Below are positions 20,473 through 32,059 of a stretch of 38,262 nt of DNA, piece after piece. Source of the stretch: Gonapodya prolifera JEL478. Lineage: Eukaryota; Monoblepharomycota; Monoblepharidomycetes; Monoblepharidales; Gonapodyaceae. Under the pieces are notes generated by a model. It searched no databases and was not told where the DNA came from. It worked only from the letters and a program-made list of their open reading frames with translations. Position 1 is the stretch's first letter. The number at the start of each line of letters is the position of its first letter. The stretch is taken from assembly GCA_001574975.1 (NCBI GenBank), contig KQ965772.1:23964-62225 (forward strand), in the 5' to 3' direction. The position numbers and the translations under genes are program-made.

Positions 20473-22514
20473 TCAAGAACAGATGTTGTGACCGTTGTGG
20501 ATACAGTTCCCGCCTGTTCCACCCTTATTTTTAACACACTTGCAGTTGTTGGCGCTAGCGCAGTCCTGACTGTCTGCAGTAGCTTTGGCGGCCTGATCGT
20601 GACAGGAAATGGAAAGAACACGATCAGGAATTTCCAACAAAACAAAATCGGAAATTATAGGCATCACTCACAATTTCGCACTCTGCGGCAACATGGAAGC
20701 CTACGAAAGGGAAACCCTCCTCAAGGGTGAGAGCCCCGGCTATGTAGCCGGCCATTGGACAAAGAAGGATTTCTCCCAGCTCCCTGAAAGGTGCAACGTG
20801 TCGATTGTAGAATTGGAAGACATTTCTCAGCGCAAGATTCAGTCATGTGGCAACAGTGGACACACTCACGCAAAGAAACACTTGGCATCTTTATAACATG
20901 CGTAAGCGAATGCACCCGGATCGGTGGGATCTGTATCTGGAGGATTCCTGCCCTCGCATTGCTGGATTGGGGTTGGTGTTCCAGTTCCTCCTCCTCCGCC
21001 ACCACCGCCACCGCCAGGTGGTGGCGGAGGAGGAGGTGGTGGTACTCCGCTGTAGCACGTTGATGGATCCCTGTGTGCGACGAAGGCGGTATTCGTTAAG
21101 GATTATGCACATCTCGCTTCTACCTAAGTTTGACACCAGCTCACCTGCACGTGTACAATCCAACATACCCATACGGCCAGCAGCACACCGAGTTGGGGTT
21201 CGCGCAGCCGGGTCCGTCGGGACTGCATGATTGTCCGTCGCCCACAAGATCGCCGCCTCCCCCTCCGCCACCGCCTCCACCGCCTCCACCGGAGCAACCT
21301 GAAAGTAAACATTTCGTGTGAGCGAGGGGCTGAAGTTCAGGGAGGGAACATAACCCCACGCACCATCACCATTCGGTCTTGAAGGTGCAAGTGACCGCAC
21401 ACAAATGCAACGTCAAACAAACCGCAACGTGACTAAGCCCCACTACAAAAGCCATACCTGCACGTGTACTTGCCACCATCACCATCAGCGATGCAGCACT
21501 GGGACGCCGAGTTTGAGCACCAGGTCGACCCTGGGTAGCACGTTGCCCAATCGGGGATTCCGTTGCTGGGAGGAGGAGGAGGTGGTGGATTCGATGGTGG
21601 AGGTGGAGGCGATGATCCACCGCAGTCTGGGTTGTGAAGTTGCGCAACGGCCTTAGAAATACTTCGGAACGTCAGTTGAAGGAGGGGAAGTCATACCTTG
21701 ACCATACGGCCTTGAGCGTAAAACTGTGAGCTCGATTGCAAGTCCCTTTGAATGAAATGCAAACGACCCACCTGCACGTGTACTTATTCCCATCCCCATT
21801 CGCGATACAGCACTGGGAGGCTGAATTGGCGCACCAGGTCGATCCAGGGTAGCATGTTTGCCAGTCGGCAACACCGCTGCTCGGAGGTGGTGGCGGCGGG
21901 GGCGGTGGTGGGGTCGATGGAGGCGGTGGCGGCGGGGTTGACGATGAAGCACAGTCTTTGGAAGAGGGATAAATAAGCTTGGTGAGGTCCTTGTGGAGTC
22001 GATAATCGGTATGATACTGCCTCACCTTGGCCGTAGGGTCTTTCAAGTCGAGGTGATGTGAATGCAAATGGAGGTTGTTAAATAAGAACGAGGCTTTCAA
22101 CGCTACTGAGCGCCCTCACCTGCAAGTGCGCTTCCCCGAGCTTGCGTCTGCCTTAGCGACGCAGCACGTGTCAAACTGTGCAGAGCAGTACGTCTGGCCG
22201 TTCACTTGACAGGTGACCCATTCCTTGGTGGCGGTTCCAGCACAGGCTGCCGACGTGAATAAAGCATACATTACATCAGAGAGCACCTGGGACGCGACAG
22301 GAACCAACTCACAGTCCGCGTTAGGCCGGCAGGTGAACTTGTTCGCTGACACGTCGGCTTTAGCAACACAGCAGACGGCATTAGACGAGGCGCAGTAGTC
22401 GAGTCCGGGGTTGCAGGTCTGCCAGTCTGCAATCCCATTATGCGCGGCGGCGTGTGGGACGAGCGTGAGTGCGATCGCGACCGCGAAGACTGCAATCGTA
22501 GCTCGTCCCCGCAT
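20473..22514 (-). CDS. Secreted multidomain protein with five six-cysteine modules and Pro/Gly linkers (novel family)
   Basis: Reconstructed in frame as about 440 residues. A signal peptide (RGRATIAVFAVAIALTLVP, cut near AHN) leads to five modules of C-x6/7-C-x6-CC-x10/12-C-x5/6-C. Module 1 (DWQTCNPGLDYC...NAVCC) is at about 22310-22440 and module 2 (WVTCQVNGQTYC) at about 22120-22230. Modules 3 (about 21773-21860) and 4 (about 21459-21545) share CYPGSTWC and KYTC; module 5 (SCSPDGPGC...NSVCC) is at about 21145-21225. Linkers are polyproline before modules 3 and 4 and polyglycine before 5; a P9-G10 linker leads to a C-terminal Cys-rich domain (LGEILLCPMAGYIAGALTLE, DCASANNCKC, NGHNICS). In modules 2, 3 and 4 a 14-nt microexon (RPYGQ or RPNGD) between two introns links cysteines 5 and 6. 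The cysteine order resembles knottins, but no family is recognised; extracellular or wall-associated binding is only a guess. Confidence 0.75.
20987..21036. repeat. 20-bp perfect inverted repeat inside coding sequence
   Basis: The arms 20987-21006 and 21017-21036 are exact reverse complements, separated by 10 nt. On the minus strand they encode the consecutive polyproline (9) and polyglycine (10) of the cysteine-rich protein, because CCN and GGN codons are complementary. The DNA or mRNA could form a strong hairpin. Confidence 0.85.
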
Positions 22515-23792: not shown

Positions 23793-25620
23793 TCAAGCAC
23801 AGATGTTGTGACCGTTTTGGTTACAGTTCCCATCCGTGCCATACCTGCACGTGTACTTGCCCCCATCACCATCAGCGATGCAGCACGATGCAGCACTGGG
23901 ACGCCGAGTTTGAGCACCAGGTCGACCCTGGGTAGCACGTTGCCCAATCGGGGATTCCGTTGCTGGGAGGAGGAGGAGGTGGTGGATTCGATGGTGGAGG
24001 TGGAGGCGATGATCCACCGCAGTCTGGGTTGTGAAGTTGGGCCCGGCCTTAGAAATACTTCGGAACGTCAGTTGAAGGAGAAAAGAATGCATACCTTGAG
24101 CGTATGGCCTTGAGCATCAAACAGTGTTGAGTTCGAGTGAACATTGCTTTGAATGAAATGCAAACACCCACCTGCACGTGTACTTGTTACCATCCCCATT
24201 CGCGATACAGCACTGAGAGGCTGAGTTCGCACACCACGTTGATCCAGGGTAGCATGTTTGCCAATCGGCAACACCGCTACTGGGAGGTGGCGGAGGCGGG
24301 GCCGGCGGGGGCCACCGGTGTTGGAGGTGGAGTCGATGGAGGCGGCGGTGGAATTGACGATCAAGCACAGTCTTTGGAAGTGGTGGTTTCGGAGATGGAA
24401 AGGTTCGGTGAGAACTTTTTTTGAATCGAAGAGTGATATGAATGATGACTTACCTTGGCCGTAGGGTCTTTCAAGGTCGAGGTCACGTGTAAATGCAAAT
24501 GAAGGTTGTTAGTTAGGTACCGGGCTTGCAACGCTGCCGAGCGCTCTCACCTGCACGTGCGTTTCCCCGAGCTTGCGTCCGCCTGGGCGACACAGCACGT
24601 GTCAAACTGTGCCGAGCAGTACGTTTGGCCGTTCACTTGGCACGTGACTTGGTGGCGGTTCCAGCACAGGCTGCCGACGTGGATGGATGACGCATGTAAT
24701 ACATTAGAAATTAGACCACACCAGAGAGGAAGACTCATTGCCCAACTCGCAGTCCGCGTTGGGTCGACAGGTGAACTTGTTCTCCGACACGCTGGCTTTC
24801 GCCACACAGCAGACGGCATTAGACGAGGCGCAGTAGTGGAGTCCAAGGTTGTATGTCTGCCAGTTTGCGATGCCGTTATGCGCGGTGGCGGTTGGGACGA
24901 GTGTGAGTGCGATCGCGGCCGCGAAGACAGCAATCGCTGCCCGAATTGTCCGCATTGTGGCAGGGCATCATCCGCATCAGATGTTATAAAGGCGCGGCTC
25001 CCTTACATAAATTGCCTTCCGCCACCTGCCCTGTAGTTCGGAGGTATGTGTATCGGAAACCTGGACATCCCGACACCAGATATGATGTATTGCGAGGTTT
25101 CAAGGGCCTCAGATTTCCGACAGAGTACCCAGCACGGTGGCGGCATTGATGAATGCAAACATATCATGATTTGACATTGTTTGGTCCAACTGGCCGGAAA
25201 CGTCTGCCAAGACTCGGGAGACTCGGGGTTCATTTTTCGGAGAGATGGGGCAAAACCGTCATGTACACCTACCTGATAGCACTTGATTTTATTGCTCCGC
25301 TCCGTCTCGGTTCCGTCTTCAGCTCGTTCCGAAGTGTCAATCTCAACAAGGTTGTCGGTAATTCCCACCTCAACTTCAGCCCTTACATTCTCATTATATC
25401 GCTTGCTTTCATCACAGGTGAGATTTCAGTAGAGGCGTATGTAAATGGAGACGAATAGAATTTTACGTAGGAGTGAGGATGGCCCAATGCATATGAGGGC
25501 AGCGGTCCGTACATAACTCTGCACGTTGGGCGCGCCAAATCTGGGTTGGAACGTTTAGCATCCTGTCCTCACCTGATCTCCTTCCTTTAGGTGTGCAAGA
25601 ACGAGGGAAACTGAATGGCA
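23710..25620. repeat. Segmental duplication, copy 2
   Basis: Second copy of the block described at 20385-23330, in the same orientation. It is shorter, because the region between module 4 and the C-terminal tail (module 5, the P9-G10 linker and the C-terminal domain exons, about 0.85 kb) is missing, and its upstream flank has diverged and contracted. Confidence 0.7.
23793..24955 (-). pseudogene. Disrupted paralogue of the cysteine-rich modular gene
   Basis: Starts with a good signal peptide (RAAIAVFAAAIALTLVP) and module 1, where the first cysteine is replaced (TYNLG instead of TCNPG). Module 2 (about 24550-24650) and its 14-nt microexon (ACCCTACGGCCAAG) are intact. The module 3 exon opens GAC TGT GCT TGA, where the intact copy has TCA: a premature stop at about 24357. 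The proline linker that follows is also out of frame with CYPGSTWC. In module 4 a 10-nt tandem duplication (GATGCAGCAC twice, about 23877-23896) shifts the frame after QCCI. The tail runs directly from KYTCR into GNCNQNGHNICA, so module 5 and the C-terminal domain are lost. High nucleotide identity in module 4 means the duplication or a conversion event is recent. A truncated product of the first two modules could still be secreted. Confidence 0.75.
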
Positions 25621-25979
25621 ATGTCGTTAGGATCTGGGAATGGAAGTAGCCATCCGGCAGCCATAAAAGAGGACTCGCAACGCAAGCTCGAGAGGTCGGG
25701 AAGCTGGGTAGTGGTTTTCAACGAATCAAAGTATTAATTTTCTTGAGAATCTGCAGTGTCAGCTTTGACCACAGTTCACATTGTTGAAACATTCCATGTG
25801 GAGAAGCAATAATAGAGGTAAACGGAGAAGATAATTGAATCCTATTAACTTTTACTTAAACACTTTGAAATCTAATTCTATTTGCCTTTGATTCTCCAAT
25901 CCTTGCGGATCGAATATTTCAACAGATTAAGAGTCTCGACTACCGCACATCTACGTACCTCAACTCATCAAAGGCGCAG
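24956..25979. other. Intergenic, diverged flank of the duplication
   Basis: About 1 kb. The left half matches the 5' flank of the intact cysteine-rich gene; the right half is AT-rich (about 25720-25900) and leads into the gag remnant. An open frame at 25153-25458 shows no recognisable domain. Confidence 0.4.
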
Positions 25980-26530
25980 ATGGAATCGAAGGACCGTCTA
26001 CCTTCATGGCAGATGTGGAAATGGGACCCCGACAACGCTCAGAAAATCCATGCCTACCTCGAAAACCTTGAAGACCACCACGACTGTTTGGATTACATCA
26101 ACGGCAATATTGAGGAGCCTATCAAGCGAGACGAGGAGGATGCGGATGCTTTCGAGAAGCGCGCTAAGGAATGGAAGACCGGAAACAGTAAAGCACTCAT
26201 CATGCTGAAATCGTCATTAAGTGATGAAGCGCTAAACCGTTTCCAACACCTACTAAAGAAACGCAGCTCCGGAAGGCGTCCAGCGGCCTCTGAGATGTAT
26301 CAAGCGATCTTGGCCAACTTCTCCCCAATCTCGCCGACTCTGTGGGCCTGCAGAAACAACTTATCGATCGCAGGATGCGGAGCGACGAAACTGTATCGCA
26401 ATTTCACACGGCACTTGCTCAGGTCGGACGAGAATGGAAAGGGATCAGGAACCAGGAATTCACCTTCGAAGAGGAGCTAGACTGGGTCAGGACCAACATT
26501 CTACCCGCACTTTTCCCCGCCTCCACACAC
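25980..26530 (+). mobile_element. Copia-type LTR retrotransposon gag remnant
   Basis: The frame from 25980 reads LPSWQMWKWDPDNAQKIHAY, LDYINGNIEEP, then KALIMLKSSLSDEALNRFQ and SEMYQAILANFS, the layout of a Ty1/Copia gag (UBN2-type) N-terminal domain. After about 26322 the similarity moves to another frame (LADSVGLQKQLIDRRMRSDE, VSQFHTALAQVGREW, FTFEEELDWV), which fits a one-base change in the CCCC run at 26322-26325. No zinc knuckle, protease, integrase or reverse transcriptase follows, and no LTRs were found. The remnant stops just before the PRPP synthetase start codon at 26538. An exapted gag is possible but the frameshift argues for decay. Confidence 0.65.
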
Positions 26531-26537
26531 CCCAGCG

Positions 26538-28525
26538 ATGGCGCAGACGAACGTGCTCGCAGGCCATGGATCGACAACAAACTCAATCAAGATTTTCGCG
26601 GGAAACTCGCATCTGCAGCTGGCGAAACTCGTCGCAAAGTATGTCTTCTCTTTCTTGCCTCTTATCCGCCAAAGGTCCCTCAATCACTTTCTTCTACACT
26701 CTCCTTATCTTCAATCACACTGCATCGATCTTTTTGTTCTCTTTCCCTTGGTACTCTCTCTCCCCTCGCCTCCAGACGATTAGGCCTCGTGAGTCAAGCT
26801 TTCCCCACTCTCCAAATCCCCCTCTACCACCTCTCACTTTCCTCCCTTCTATTTCGTTGCCATCCTGCTACGGTCACATCCTCCCATCAAGGACCTCGCC
26901 CGCGTCGCCGTCCTGAAATACAGCAACCAGGAAACATCCGTCACCGTCGGCGAGAGTGTCAGAGACGAGGATGTGTTCATCATACAGACTGGAGCTGGAG
27001 AAATAAATGACGCTCTCATGGTGAGTCGGGGTATTGCTTTCGTGGGGGTGCCATGGTTTGACAAATTACCGCGCCTCTCAACATTCCCTCCCCGCCAAAC
27101 TCACACCACTCACTTCGCGCCTGTTTTGCCTCATACACAGGAACTCCTTATCATGATCAACGCCTGTCGCTCCGCGTCCGCCCGACGCATCACCGCCGTC
27201 GTACCCAGCTACCCTTACGCTCGTCAGGTGGGTGTGCTTCGAGTTCCAGATGTCTTTACGGAAGAGAGACACTCGGATATGCGGCGTGATGCTGGATAGA
27301 TGAGTTGATGACATGGATACTTGGAGGAGGGGGACAAGTGGGAACTTTCGCGGAGTGAAATAACGAATAAACGAGTATGGGTGACCAGACGCTGGATAGA
27401 AACGCCTATCCCGTGCGCATGAATGGACATGGAACGCAGATTAGAAAGGCATGCGTCGAGAAACGAAGTCGTAAGCTCCAGCTGTATTGTTAGGTGTTCA
27501 TGTGTGACTTGACGAATGCATGGACACCTGCCGAGACTACTGAAGACCCACAGAGTATGCAGACCCAGGCGTGCGCCCGTCTGCCCCACGACCCATGGTT
27601 CCACGAAACAAACTCTGACCGCTCACTCACCCTCACAGGACCGCAAAGACAAATCCCGCGCCCCCATCACGGGCAAACTCGTCGCCAACATGCTCACCAA
27701 AGCCGGGTGCGACCACCTGATCACGATGGACCTGCACGCGTCTCAGATCCAGGGGTTCTTCGACATCCCCGTCGACAACCTGTTCGCCGAGCCTATGATG
27801 TGCAAGTGGGTCAGAGATAATGTCCCCGAGTGCAAGAATTTGGATTGCATTATCGTAAGTCCGGATGCGGGCGGCGCCAAACGGTGGGTGGATTTCTTCG
27901 TTGTTTGCCAGCCCCTGCCTCCATCCTTACCCTACCACCACAGCGCCGCCGCCATGGCCGACAAACTCGGTGTAGACTTTGCGCTGATCCACAAAGAACG
28001 CAAAAAGGCCAACGAGGTGTCAAAAATGATCCTGGTCGGGGACGTTCGGGGGAAGGTGGCGGTCTTGGTGGACGATATGGCAGATACGTGTGGCACGCTT
28101 GGAAAGGCCGCCGAGGTGCTGATTGAGAACGGAGCGACGAAGGTGTATGCTGCTGTGACCCACGGTGGGTTGCTGGCTGGGAGTTTCGGCTTGGCATGAT
28201 TTGGATTGTCAACACATCCTGCCTCATTCGCGCCATTCCGGTCCCTCGCCTCCCTCCTTTTTATTTACACCACCAACGCCCTCTTTCGACAGGCGTCCTC
28301 TCCGGCAAAGCGACTTCCATCATCAACTCCTCCCCTCTAACCAAACTCGTAATGACCAACTCGATCCCGCACGAGGACAAGGCCCTGCTGTGTCCCAAGA
28401 TCGAAACCATCGACATCTCCATGACCCTCGCTGAAGCCATCCGTCGCACGCATAACGGGGAGAGCGTGTCGTATTTGTTTGGAAACGTGCCGGATGGAAT
28501 GGGCGAGTTGGATGTCGTGGGCTGA
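26538..28525 (+). CDS. PRS: Ribose-phosphate pyrophosphokinase (PRPP synthetase), seven exons
   Basis: Makes PRPP from ribose-5-phosphate and ATP for nucleotide, His and Trp synthesis. Exons: 26538-26638 ([20 protein letters not shown]), 26776-26788 (a 13-nt microexon encoding RLGL), 26892-27020 ([30 protein letters not shown]), 27141-27227 ([17 protein letters not shown]), 27639-27883 ([39 protein letters not shown]), 27944-28164 ([16 protein letters not shown], the PRPP-binding loop [16 protein letters not shown]) and 28293-28525 ([17 protein letters not shown] to GELDVVG). All joins keep frame and use GTRNGT donors. About 321 residues, the normal length for the catalytic enzyme, without the long insertion of yeast Prs1/Prs5 types. 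The ATG at 26538 adds a few residues before TNSIKIF. Intron 4 (27228-27638) is unusually long, and nothing is recognised in it. Upstream is a gag remnant rather than an ordinary promoter. Confidence 0.95.
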
Positions 28526-30571: not shown

Positions 30572-31750
30572 CTACTTTGTTTGTTTGTTATTCCACCAGT
30601 CGAAAGCCATCCTCTCCACCTCCAAACTCGCGAGTACGAAAGCTGACTCTCCCAACAAACTGTTCGGCACAATTGGCCTCGTAGTATAGTACTGATACGT
30701 TGCGGTAGAGTTCAGACTATTCACAGCGACGGTGCCGTTGTAGCCCAAAGTACCGTTCCCGTAATGAACGACAAAATTCTTTGCCACGTAGGAGTATGCT
30801 TTCAGCGCCTTGCTGATGTGGTCCCACGAAGGCTCTACAATTTGCAGGCGCGATGCTTTGAGGATGCTGAAGATGTAAAGCGCCGTTGAAGAGCTTTCTA
30901 GGAAGTTTCCTTCGCGCCCAGGAAACGTTGGTAGTTGCCACCAGACACCCGTCGAGTTGTCTGCGAGGTCAATCAGTACCGGAATGATAGTCTTTAGCGT
31001 GTTGCGGATGAACGTCTGCACCGTTTGGGGGACGCAGGGGTATGCCTCAACCAAGCCCATCAGAAACCAACCCATCGAACGACCCCAAACGAACGGGCTT
31101 CCGCCAGTGCTGTTGTTCGCCCACACCGCCGTTTTAGATGCGTCGTAGCCGTGCACCAGCAACCCTGACTGGTGTGCGCAGTGTGTCTCGAGGAGGTGAA
31201 GCTGCAGGAGCATTTCGGTATCGCTCCAGCCCGTTTTGGCCATGAAGGGGAGGAAGCTAACCGTGCCGTCGAGGTAAGACCAATTGGCGTAGATGTAGTA
31301 CCAGAACCCCCCCTCGGGAGTGCGGGGTTGGAGTGCAAGGGATCCGTTGAGGATGCTGAGCACGGCCGACTCGTTGGCGGACAGGGGGCGGTGGAGGTTG
31401 AGAAGCGCGTATCCTAGGGTAAGTCTGTCCATTGGAAGTTTGGTTGACGCGTTCGCGGACTTGAACGAGGGCAGTGTGGCGTCCAGCACCGCGTCAAGGT
31501 AACTGGAGAAGTTTTTGCCCTCGGGGCACCACGAGTACAGGTCGACCCAGGACCGGAGTGCGTGGGAGAGGATGCCAGCTTCGAGTGTGCTGGTGGGCGC
31601 TCCCGAGGAAACGATGCCCTGCCTGCGAGATATCACGGAGTCGAGCATTTGGGTTGATAGCGGCCGGAACGCTTCCGGGCTTGGGAATGCATCGGTGTGA
31701 GCAGCAACTGCTGTCAAGATGAGTACGGGGAGGACGGCTATCGCTCTCAT
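30572..31750 (-). CDS. GH105 unsaturated rhamnogalacturonyl/glucuronyl hydrolase, secreted, intronless
   Basis: A single open frame of 392 residues from the ATG at 31750. A signal peptide (RAIAVLPVLILTAVAAHTDA) is followed by an (alpha/alpha)6-barrel family signature: LTLGYALLNL, GGFWYYIYANWSYLDGTVSF, ETHCAHQSGLLVHGYDASKT, SPFVWGRSMGWFLMGLVEAY and SSTALYIFSILKAS. GH88/GH105 enzymes act on the unsaturated uronyl residue left by pectin or rhamnogalacturonan lyases, using a conserved Asp; the Asp of SYLDGTV is the likely candidate (family knowledge plus position). Many N-x-S/T sequons (for example NWS, NNST, NGT, NST) suit an N-glycosylated secreted enzyme. The in-frame ATG at 31852 would place the signal peptide inside the protein, so 31750 is preferred. 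Being intronless beside intron-rich neighbours is unusual here. The role is scavenging of plant pectin side chains. Confidence 0.88.
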   Translation of the reverse strand: MRAIAVLPVLILTAVAAHTDAFPSPEAFRPLSTQMLDSVISRRQGIVSSGAPTSTLEAGILSHALRSWVDLYSWCPEGKNFSSYLDAVLDATLPSFKSANASTKLPMDRLTLGYALLNLHRPLSANESAVLSILNGSLALQPRTPEGGFWYYIYANWSYLDGTVSFLPFMAKTGWSDTEMLLQLHLLETHCAHQSGLLVHGYDASKTAVWANNSTGGSPFVWGRSMGWFLMGLVEAYPCVPQTVQTFIRNTLKTIIPVLIDLADNSTGVWWQLPTFPGREGNFLESSSTALYIFSILKASRLQIVEPSWDHISKALKAYSYVAKNFVVHYGNGTLGYNGTVAVNSLNSTATYQYYTTRPIVPNSLLGESAFVLASLEVERMAFDWWNNKQTK

Positions 31751-32059
31751 GTTGAGGTCGACTTGATAAGAGGGAAGAAAAACGTACTGAAGGGTTTTCG
31801 TTGAGTTGACAGGGTGGGTACCTGAATTCAGGTCGACGCCAAGACGGGACAAGAAGAGTGGCGCTTGAGACGGTCCCGTGTTAATCCGTTGCCATGCAAC
31901 ATGGCTGGGTGCAGTTGGAGGGGAGAATGCGTTCCCGCTGGAGTGAAACGTAAAAGGAAGGAGGCACCGTCTCCCTCCCTCGGTCGCACCTTAGAATCCC
32001 ACCCACACTTTGCTGCTTGCTCGGTTAATACGACTCAAAAGCTGGAGCGAACGGACGGC
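31751..32059. other. Divergent promoter region of the GH105 gene
   Basis: About 310 bp between the GH105 start and the next plus-strand coding fragment. A 31865-32227 open frame crosses it but shows no domain. No clear motif seen. Confidence 0.35.

Follow-up and report, generated by a model that had tools for sequence, protein, structure and literature searches.

Putative carbohydrate-binding, knottin-like six-cysteine modules occur in tandem arrays and ahead of GH5 domains in Gonapodya prolifera

A gene in a 38,262-nucleotide stretch of the genome of Gonapodya prolifera JEL478 (the window, part of contig C42) probably encodes a secreted, multivalent carbohydrate-binding protein, a putative assignment drawn from sequence. 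Its five six-cysteine modules belong to a genome-wide family that we regard as a new, knottin-like, putative carbohydrate-binding module (CBM) family. At three loci a pair of these modules precedes a glycoside hydrolase family 5 (GH5) domain, for which a carbohydrate-binding role is the best explanation. We are evenly divided on whether the modules found a new CBM family, cystine-knot-like in its six-cysteine fold, which this lineage uses to aim GH5 enzymes and also free as lectin-like arrays of up to five, its last loop often encoded by a 14-nt microexon that has a fixed position and has persisted as modules duplicated (8 of 12 loci).

The window gene lies on the minus strand, from an ATG at 22514 to the end of a TGA at 20473, exactly the limits proposed in a sequence-only reading of the window. 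That reading had also joined a dozen exons in frame. The splice model does join into a single frame of 1311 nt, but with 11 exons, three of them 14-nt microexons that the earlier count had included without comment. All 10 introns are GT-AG and 61–86 nt long. Behind a signal-type stretch, modules 1 and 2 adjoin one another; Pro-rich linkers flank module 3 on both sides, a Gly-rich one joins module 4 to module 5, and a Pro/Gly linker connects module 5 with the Cys-rich C-terminal domain. The spliced translation thereby bears out the earlier description of a signal peptide, five modules of C-x6/7-C-x6-CC-x10/12-C-x5/6-C, Pro/Gly linkers and a Cys-rich C-terminal domain. The features are as follows, with A and B denoting the two intron sites defined below.

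20473–22514, minus strand: whole gene; 11 exons, 436 aa, from the GT-AG spliced model and the exon/intron contrast with C63
22514–22313, 22246–22120, 22039–22026, 21955–21772, minus strand: exons 1–4
21710–21697, 21626–21458, 21377–21364, 21298–21145, minus strand: exons 5–8
21070–20870, 20783–20672, 20592–20473, minus strand: exons 9–11
22443–22514, minus strand: probable signal peptide; 24 aa, hydrophobic core, AAA end before HNG, read by eye
22242–22439, minus strand: module 1; long x12 loop, sixth Cys in exon 2, intron at site B only
21951–22235, minus strand: module 2; x7 first loop and x12 loop, 14-nt microexon 22039–22026
21879–21950, minus strand: Pro-rich linker between modules 2 and 3, from translation
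21622–21878, minus strand: module 3; x10 loop, 14-nt microexon 21710–21697
21565–21621, minus strand: Pro-rich linker between modules 3 and 4, from translation
21294–21564, minus strand: module 4; x10 loop, 14-nt microexon 21377–21364
21252–21293, minus strand: Gly-rich linker between modules 4 and 5, from translation
21055–21251, minus strand: module 5; divergent, final C-x5-C, intron at site A only
20473–20963, minus strand: C-terminal Cys-rich domain; part of exon 9 and exons 10–11
23793–24955, minus strand: broken, shortened tandem copy of the gene, from genome search and translation

Comparison with a paralogue, C63 (locus L001), supports the exon model. Between the two genes, exons are 78–100% identical and introns 36–78%, and all 10 corresponding C63 introns start with GT and finish with AG. 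Over the five modules dN/dS is 0.088 (synonymous 0.367, nonsynonymous 0.032); between window modules 3 and 4 it is 0.05, with synonymous change near saturation. In the C63 copy the reading frame shifts within one linker and a stop codon takes the place of the fifth Cys in module 5; this copy may now be broken or misassembled, in which case the constraint is that of its past. C63 also holds the only other match in this genome to the C-terminal Cys-rich domain of the window protein. Judged from sequence, the module pattern is not a product of chance, given a genome-wide family and a dN/dS of about 0.09.

The tandem copy beside the window gene has lost the first Cys codon of module 1. A short stretch within its module 4 is duplicated, and neither module 5 nor the greater part of the C-terminal domain is present. 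Elsewhere in the window, 30572–31990 on the minus strand encodes a glycoside hydrolase (PF07470, Glyco_hydro_88, E 1.8e-37), a family whose enzymes act on pectin side chains. Open frames at 25869–27007 on the plus strand look gag-like (retroelement) by eye and have no Pfam match at E ≤ 0.001.

The family extends well beyond the window. A 37-aa module query returned 30 genome matches at E ≤ 0.001 including itself (best non-self 8e-20), and additional queries brought in the C5, C44 and C8 loci. We examined 12 loci with 38 module ends, counting the window gene and leaving aside its broken copy and C63 module 5. Repeat proteins are encoded at C42, C63 and C54, and also at C90 and C91, where they end in a different C-terminal domain; the C91 modules fall into two groups and may represent two genes. 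C5 encodes four modules with a stop right behind the last one, at C32, C44 and C8 one or two modules precede Cys-rich tails, and C104, C39 and C9 are the GH5 loci. Purifying selection shows between the C90 and C91 modules too, with a dN/dS of 0.21; one of the three pairs reaches 0.485, a point against the carbohydrate-binding reading set out below. Outside this genome, 9 stretches in prokaryote genomes and 24 in viral contigs fit a module pattern, and none in either set was confirmed.

Some of these loci show further features of their own. The C90 and C91 arrays (L004, L005) end in a conserved domain of ~110 aa (NVVTCAYKTL...) with a between-copy dN/dS of 0.13. At E ≤ 1, the Cys-rich tail CLFNKPCFEKC... 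turns up at just two loci of the genome, C32 (L008) and C44 (L013). Module 5 of C54 (L002) contains an in-frame TAG amid family-like exons, possibly marking a broken gene.

We tabulated cysteine spacing for the 28 modules in which a resolved splice or an open reading supplies the sixth Cys, excluding C44 and C54 module 1 here and from the aromatic counts. The form C-x6-C-x6-CC-x10-C-x6-C accounts for 15 of the 28, with x6 taken as the terminal spacing of C90 module 1 and C91 b1, where either x5 or x6 is possible. Six modules have an x12 loop, three an x7 first loop together with x12, two a final x5, one an x9 loop, and one (C5) a 14-residue first loop. Six cysteines in the order C-C-CC-C-C are invariant in all 15 aligned spliced modules. 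Across the 38 ends, the sixth Cys stands where expected in 33 (the 28 tabulated plus C54 module 2, C32 module 1 and C5 modules 2–4); leaving out C90 module 2 and C39 module 1, it was not found at the expected place in C54 module 1, C44 and C8, although C44 and C8 do have the microexon. Aromatic residues recur at defined points: at the W position of DWxTC in 25 of 28 modules, before T-C5 in 23 of 28 (His included), and immediately before C2 in 15 of 28. These positions are not universal, and window module 5 has G instead of W.

Two fixed intron sites separate Cys 5 from Cys 6. Site A (phase 2) lies within the codon following the fifth Cys, and site B (phase 1) in the codon preceding the sixth. 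Where both are used, they delimit the 14-nt microexon, which encodes RPxGx or similar and whose skipping shifts the frame. The microexon is present in 17 of 38 module ends, 15 found by script and two (C5 module 2 and C54 module 4) read otherwise, at the loci C42, C63, C54, C9, C32, C5, C44 and C8. The other 21 ends comprise ten with site A only, seven with site B only (five of them first modules), C54 module 5, which reads openly straight through both sites, and C90 module 2, C39 module 1 and C54 module 1, assigned to no intron class. Modules as unlike as those of C5 and C42 have these sites in common, which argues for common descent and against a chance pattern of cysteines.

A module tree bears on how the arrays arose. 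It holds 30 of the 38 module ends over 40 columns, with many forks unresolved, and omits C54 module 2, C90 module 2, C39 module 1, C32 module 1, C5 modules 2–4, C8, C63 module 5 and the broken window copy; the rows for C44 (last Cys entered by analogy) and C54 module 1 (last Cys from intron read-through) are faulty in the final residue. C42 and C63 modules pair by position (module 1, 92/77; module 2, 100/99; module 4, 100/98), and the fifth modules of C42 and C54 group together. Since paralogues group by position, the array is probably older than the C42/C63/C54 gene duplications. The long-loop window modules 1 and 2 group with the GH5-linked modules at a weak fork (87/91, drawn open). We infer a history in which an N-terminal module pair was common to the enzymes and the repeat proteins before the arrays grew, the family presumably spreading by duplication of whole modules along with their intron sites. 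Gene model, tree and genome-wide family thus agree with the earlier proposal that the protein was built by module duplication.

Profile searches connect the modules to no established family. Among 22 single modules, Pfam gave two weak matches, one module each (PF10530, E 0.029; Gallidermin, E 0.25), in scans whose HMMER filters discard most matches above E ~0.1; the Gallidermin match was dismissed. As the sequence-only reading had held, hevein/CBM18, WSC, EGF and CFEM domains are absent from the Pfam matches of these 22 modules, as is CBM1. The whole window protein and its single modules against Pfam and NCBIfam, and the C-terminal domain against Pfam, yielded nothing but PUA_4 on module 4 (E 0.15; 12.7 bits against a cut-off of 23.9; 15 residues, 223–237), a chance match. 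Neither a single module nor the C-terminal domain matched a PDB entry by sequence at E ≤ 10. No description of such a module was found in the literature searched, whose coverage leaves out most subscription journals.

Two fungal module types offer the closest comparison in kind. CBM1 is a small Cys-rich module attached by linkers to wall-degrading enzymes of fungi. The present modules resemble CBM1 (PF00734) in being small, Cys-rich units of secreted proteins that can be attached to a wall-degrading enzyme, but they differ in Cys order, have no CGGxG or NPYYSQC motif, and occur up to five per protein; hhalign against seven CBM1 rows from the same genome gave a probability of 0.3% over 4 columns. 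The hevein/CBM18 proteins of Batrachochytrium carry tandem arrays in secreted proteins, with a Cys spacing unlike that of these modules. They are described as an expanded family of small Cys-rich modules (PMC3569864), and in this the Gonapodya family, likewise expanded in a fungus, is similar.

The strongest guide to function is the fusion to GH5. At 3 of the 12 loci (C104, C39 and C9), the module pair is N-terminal to a GH5 mannanase-like domain, which unites noncatalytic modules and a carbohydrate-active enzyme in one polypeptide. The joining, read from open frame and splice signals, is direct: at all three, the sixth Cys of module 2 and the start of GH5 share one exon in frame, across a short linker that is Thr-rich in C104 and C39 and Pro-rich in C9. 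The C104 catalytic exon scores 26.2 bits against PF00150 (cut-off 23.5) and matches the endo-beta-mannanase 4qp0 at 2.9e-7 over residues 6–181, the first half, where the NE motifs line up; an EE motif does occur further on, and the second catalytic Glu is placed by motif only, the 4qp0 alignment there scoring -3.3 bits. The top PDB rows for this exon, 8prj and relatives, were set aside as 22-residue repeat matches with no stretch passing alone. Used as a genome query (E ≤ 0.01), the exon found three loci, all with modules upstream. The PF00150 profile gave 12 matches over the genome and none at these three, so that the family search misses weak members which a direct protein search recovers. 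In C39 the GH5 domain was matched piecewise in different frames and the first module lacks one Cys; the domain looks broken, or interrupted by introns absent from C104.

These loci suggest how the modules might work. Each would form a small, three-disulfide unit resembling a cystine knot and bind polysaccharide, probably via exposed aromatics, candidates being the W in DWxTC, the W/Y ahead of the second Cys and the Y ahead of the fifth. At the GH5 loci, the pair would keep the catalytic domain on its substrate, by analogy with CBM1 in other fungi; a CBM1–GH5 combination is named in PMC6690862. The window protein, in which no catalytic domain was recognised, could gain avidity from its five modules and act as a lectin-like cross-linker or anchor, from cell surface to substrate or inside the organism's own wall, in which case it would resemble in its mode of action the arrayed wall lectins of amoebae described below. 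The genome's CBM1 matches, at least 24, fit an organism working on plant walls. Against a carbohydrate-binding reading, a recognised catalytic domain is present at only 3 of 12 loci over the stretches read, and no sequence match links the modules to a catalogued CBM. GH5 attachment is the only strong functional clue, and one function for all family members is an assumption, because the C-terminal domains of C90 and C54 have no Pfam match and the C32/C44 tail lay outside the scan. The earlier description of an extracellular "binding or structural" protein is nonetheless supported, and the GH5 loci sharpen it to probably carbohydrate-binding.

The best surviving alternative, to which we give a minor share of belief, is a structural wall or adhesive protein, in which rigid disulfide beads on Pro/Gly arms cross-link or space other components without specific sugar binding. 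Long Pro and Gly linkers, five modules and a window protein without a Pfam family all suit it. There is also precedent in the Jacob (6-Cys) and Leo (8-Cys) lectins of Entamoeba and Acanthamoeba, which are described as Cys-rich wall proteins with lineage-specific polysaccharide-binding domains in tandem, some with low-complexity spacers (PMC2907411, PMC6541295). Those spaced arrays are wall components, though ones that bind chitin or cellulose, and the likeness is one of description: the organisms are unrelated, and the spacers are rich in Ser/Thr or Thr/Lys/His (PMC2907411, PMC6541295). A structural role leaves unexplained why the module pair stands before GH5 at each of the three loci where this type of enzyme was found.

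The fold is likely knottin-like, as judged from predicted structure. The AlphaFold query was a read-through of module 1 in which intron bases complete the codon of the last Cys, one residue nearer than in the spliced form; from a seven-row alignment, the best of five models reached pLDDT 77.7 (the others 57.8–61.1). Foldseek returned 13 matches (best E 1.3), nine of which we take to be cystine-knot peptides, the others including Dickkopf, IGFBP-5, a defensin and an antibody complex. By VIA-align, Z rose to 4.4, below a telling level, and IGFBP-5, no knottin, scored 4.1. Of the earlier knottin-like assignment, then, the C-C-CC-C-C order stands, and the model leans weakly (E ≥ 1.3, Z ≤ 4.4) to cystine-knot peptides. 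The modules share with inhibitor cystine knots this order and the C-x6-C-x6-CC start, and the folds nearest to the model in the PDB are mostly of that kind, but they differ in their longer C4–C5 loop (mostly 10–12), their Pro/Gly-linked arrays and their fusion to a glycoside hydrolase.

Cys order and predicted fold recall cystine-knot miniproteins, and the modules could in principle be knottin weapons or inhibitors (antimicrobial, protease-inhibiting or channel-active) released from a multi-module precursor. The one solved structure that the module profile matched by sequence is Xt3a (E 0.011 without the sixth Cys, 0.1 with the longer profile that includes it), which we set down as a hint and not as homology, and PF10530, touched by one module of 22, is an inhibitor cystine knot toxin family. 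We nevertheless find this role very unlikely: the sole dibasic pair in the 436 aa sits within module 2, leaving no such release sites between modules, the structural matches are weak and the fold is common to many functions, and the GH5 fusion points elsewhere. There is only a slim chance that the modules are dockerin-like protein–protein docking units assembling a surface complex, which would suit small, repeated, Cys-rich units attached to enzymes at some loci, but no partner domain was identified and no dockerin family appears in the Pfam matches of the 22 modules.

Carbohydrate binding, our preferred reading, would carry consequences for genomes of this kind. If the modules bind polysaccharide, they represent an uncatalogued CBM type that could be missed, having no profile match here and, in many modules, a microexon; a 14-nt exon inside many modules would probably mislead ordinary gene prediction. 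The fixed pair of intron sites lets the history of module duplication be read. Were the reading true, more wall-active proteins would be counted in such genomes, and a small binding unit would be on offer.
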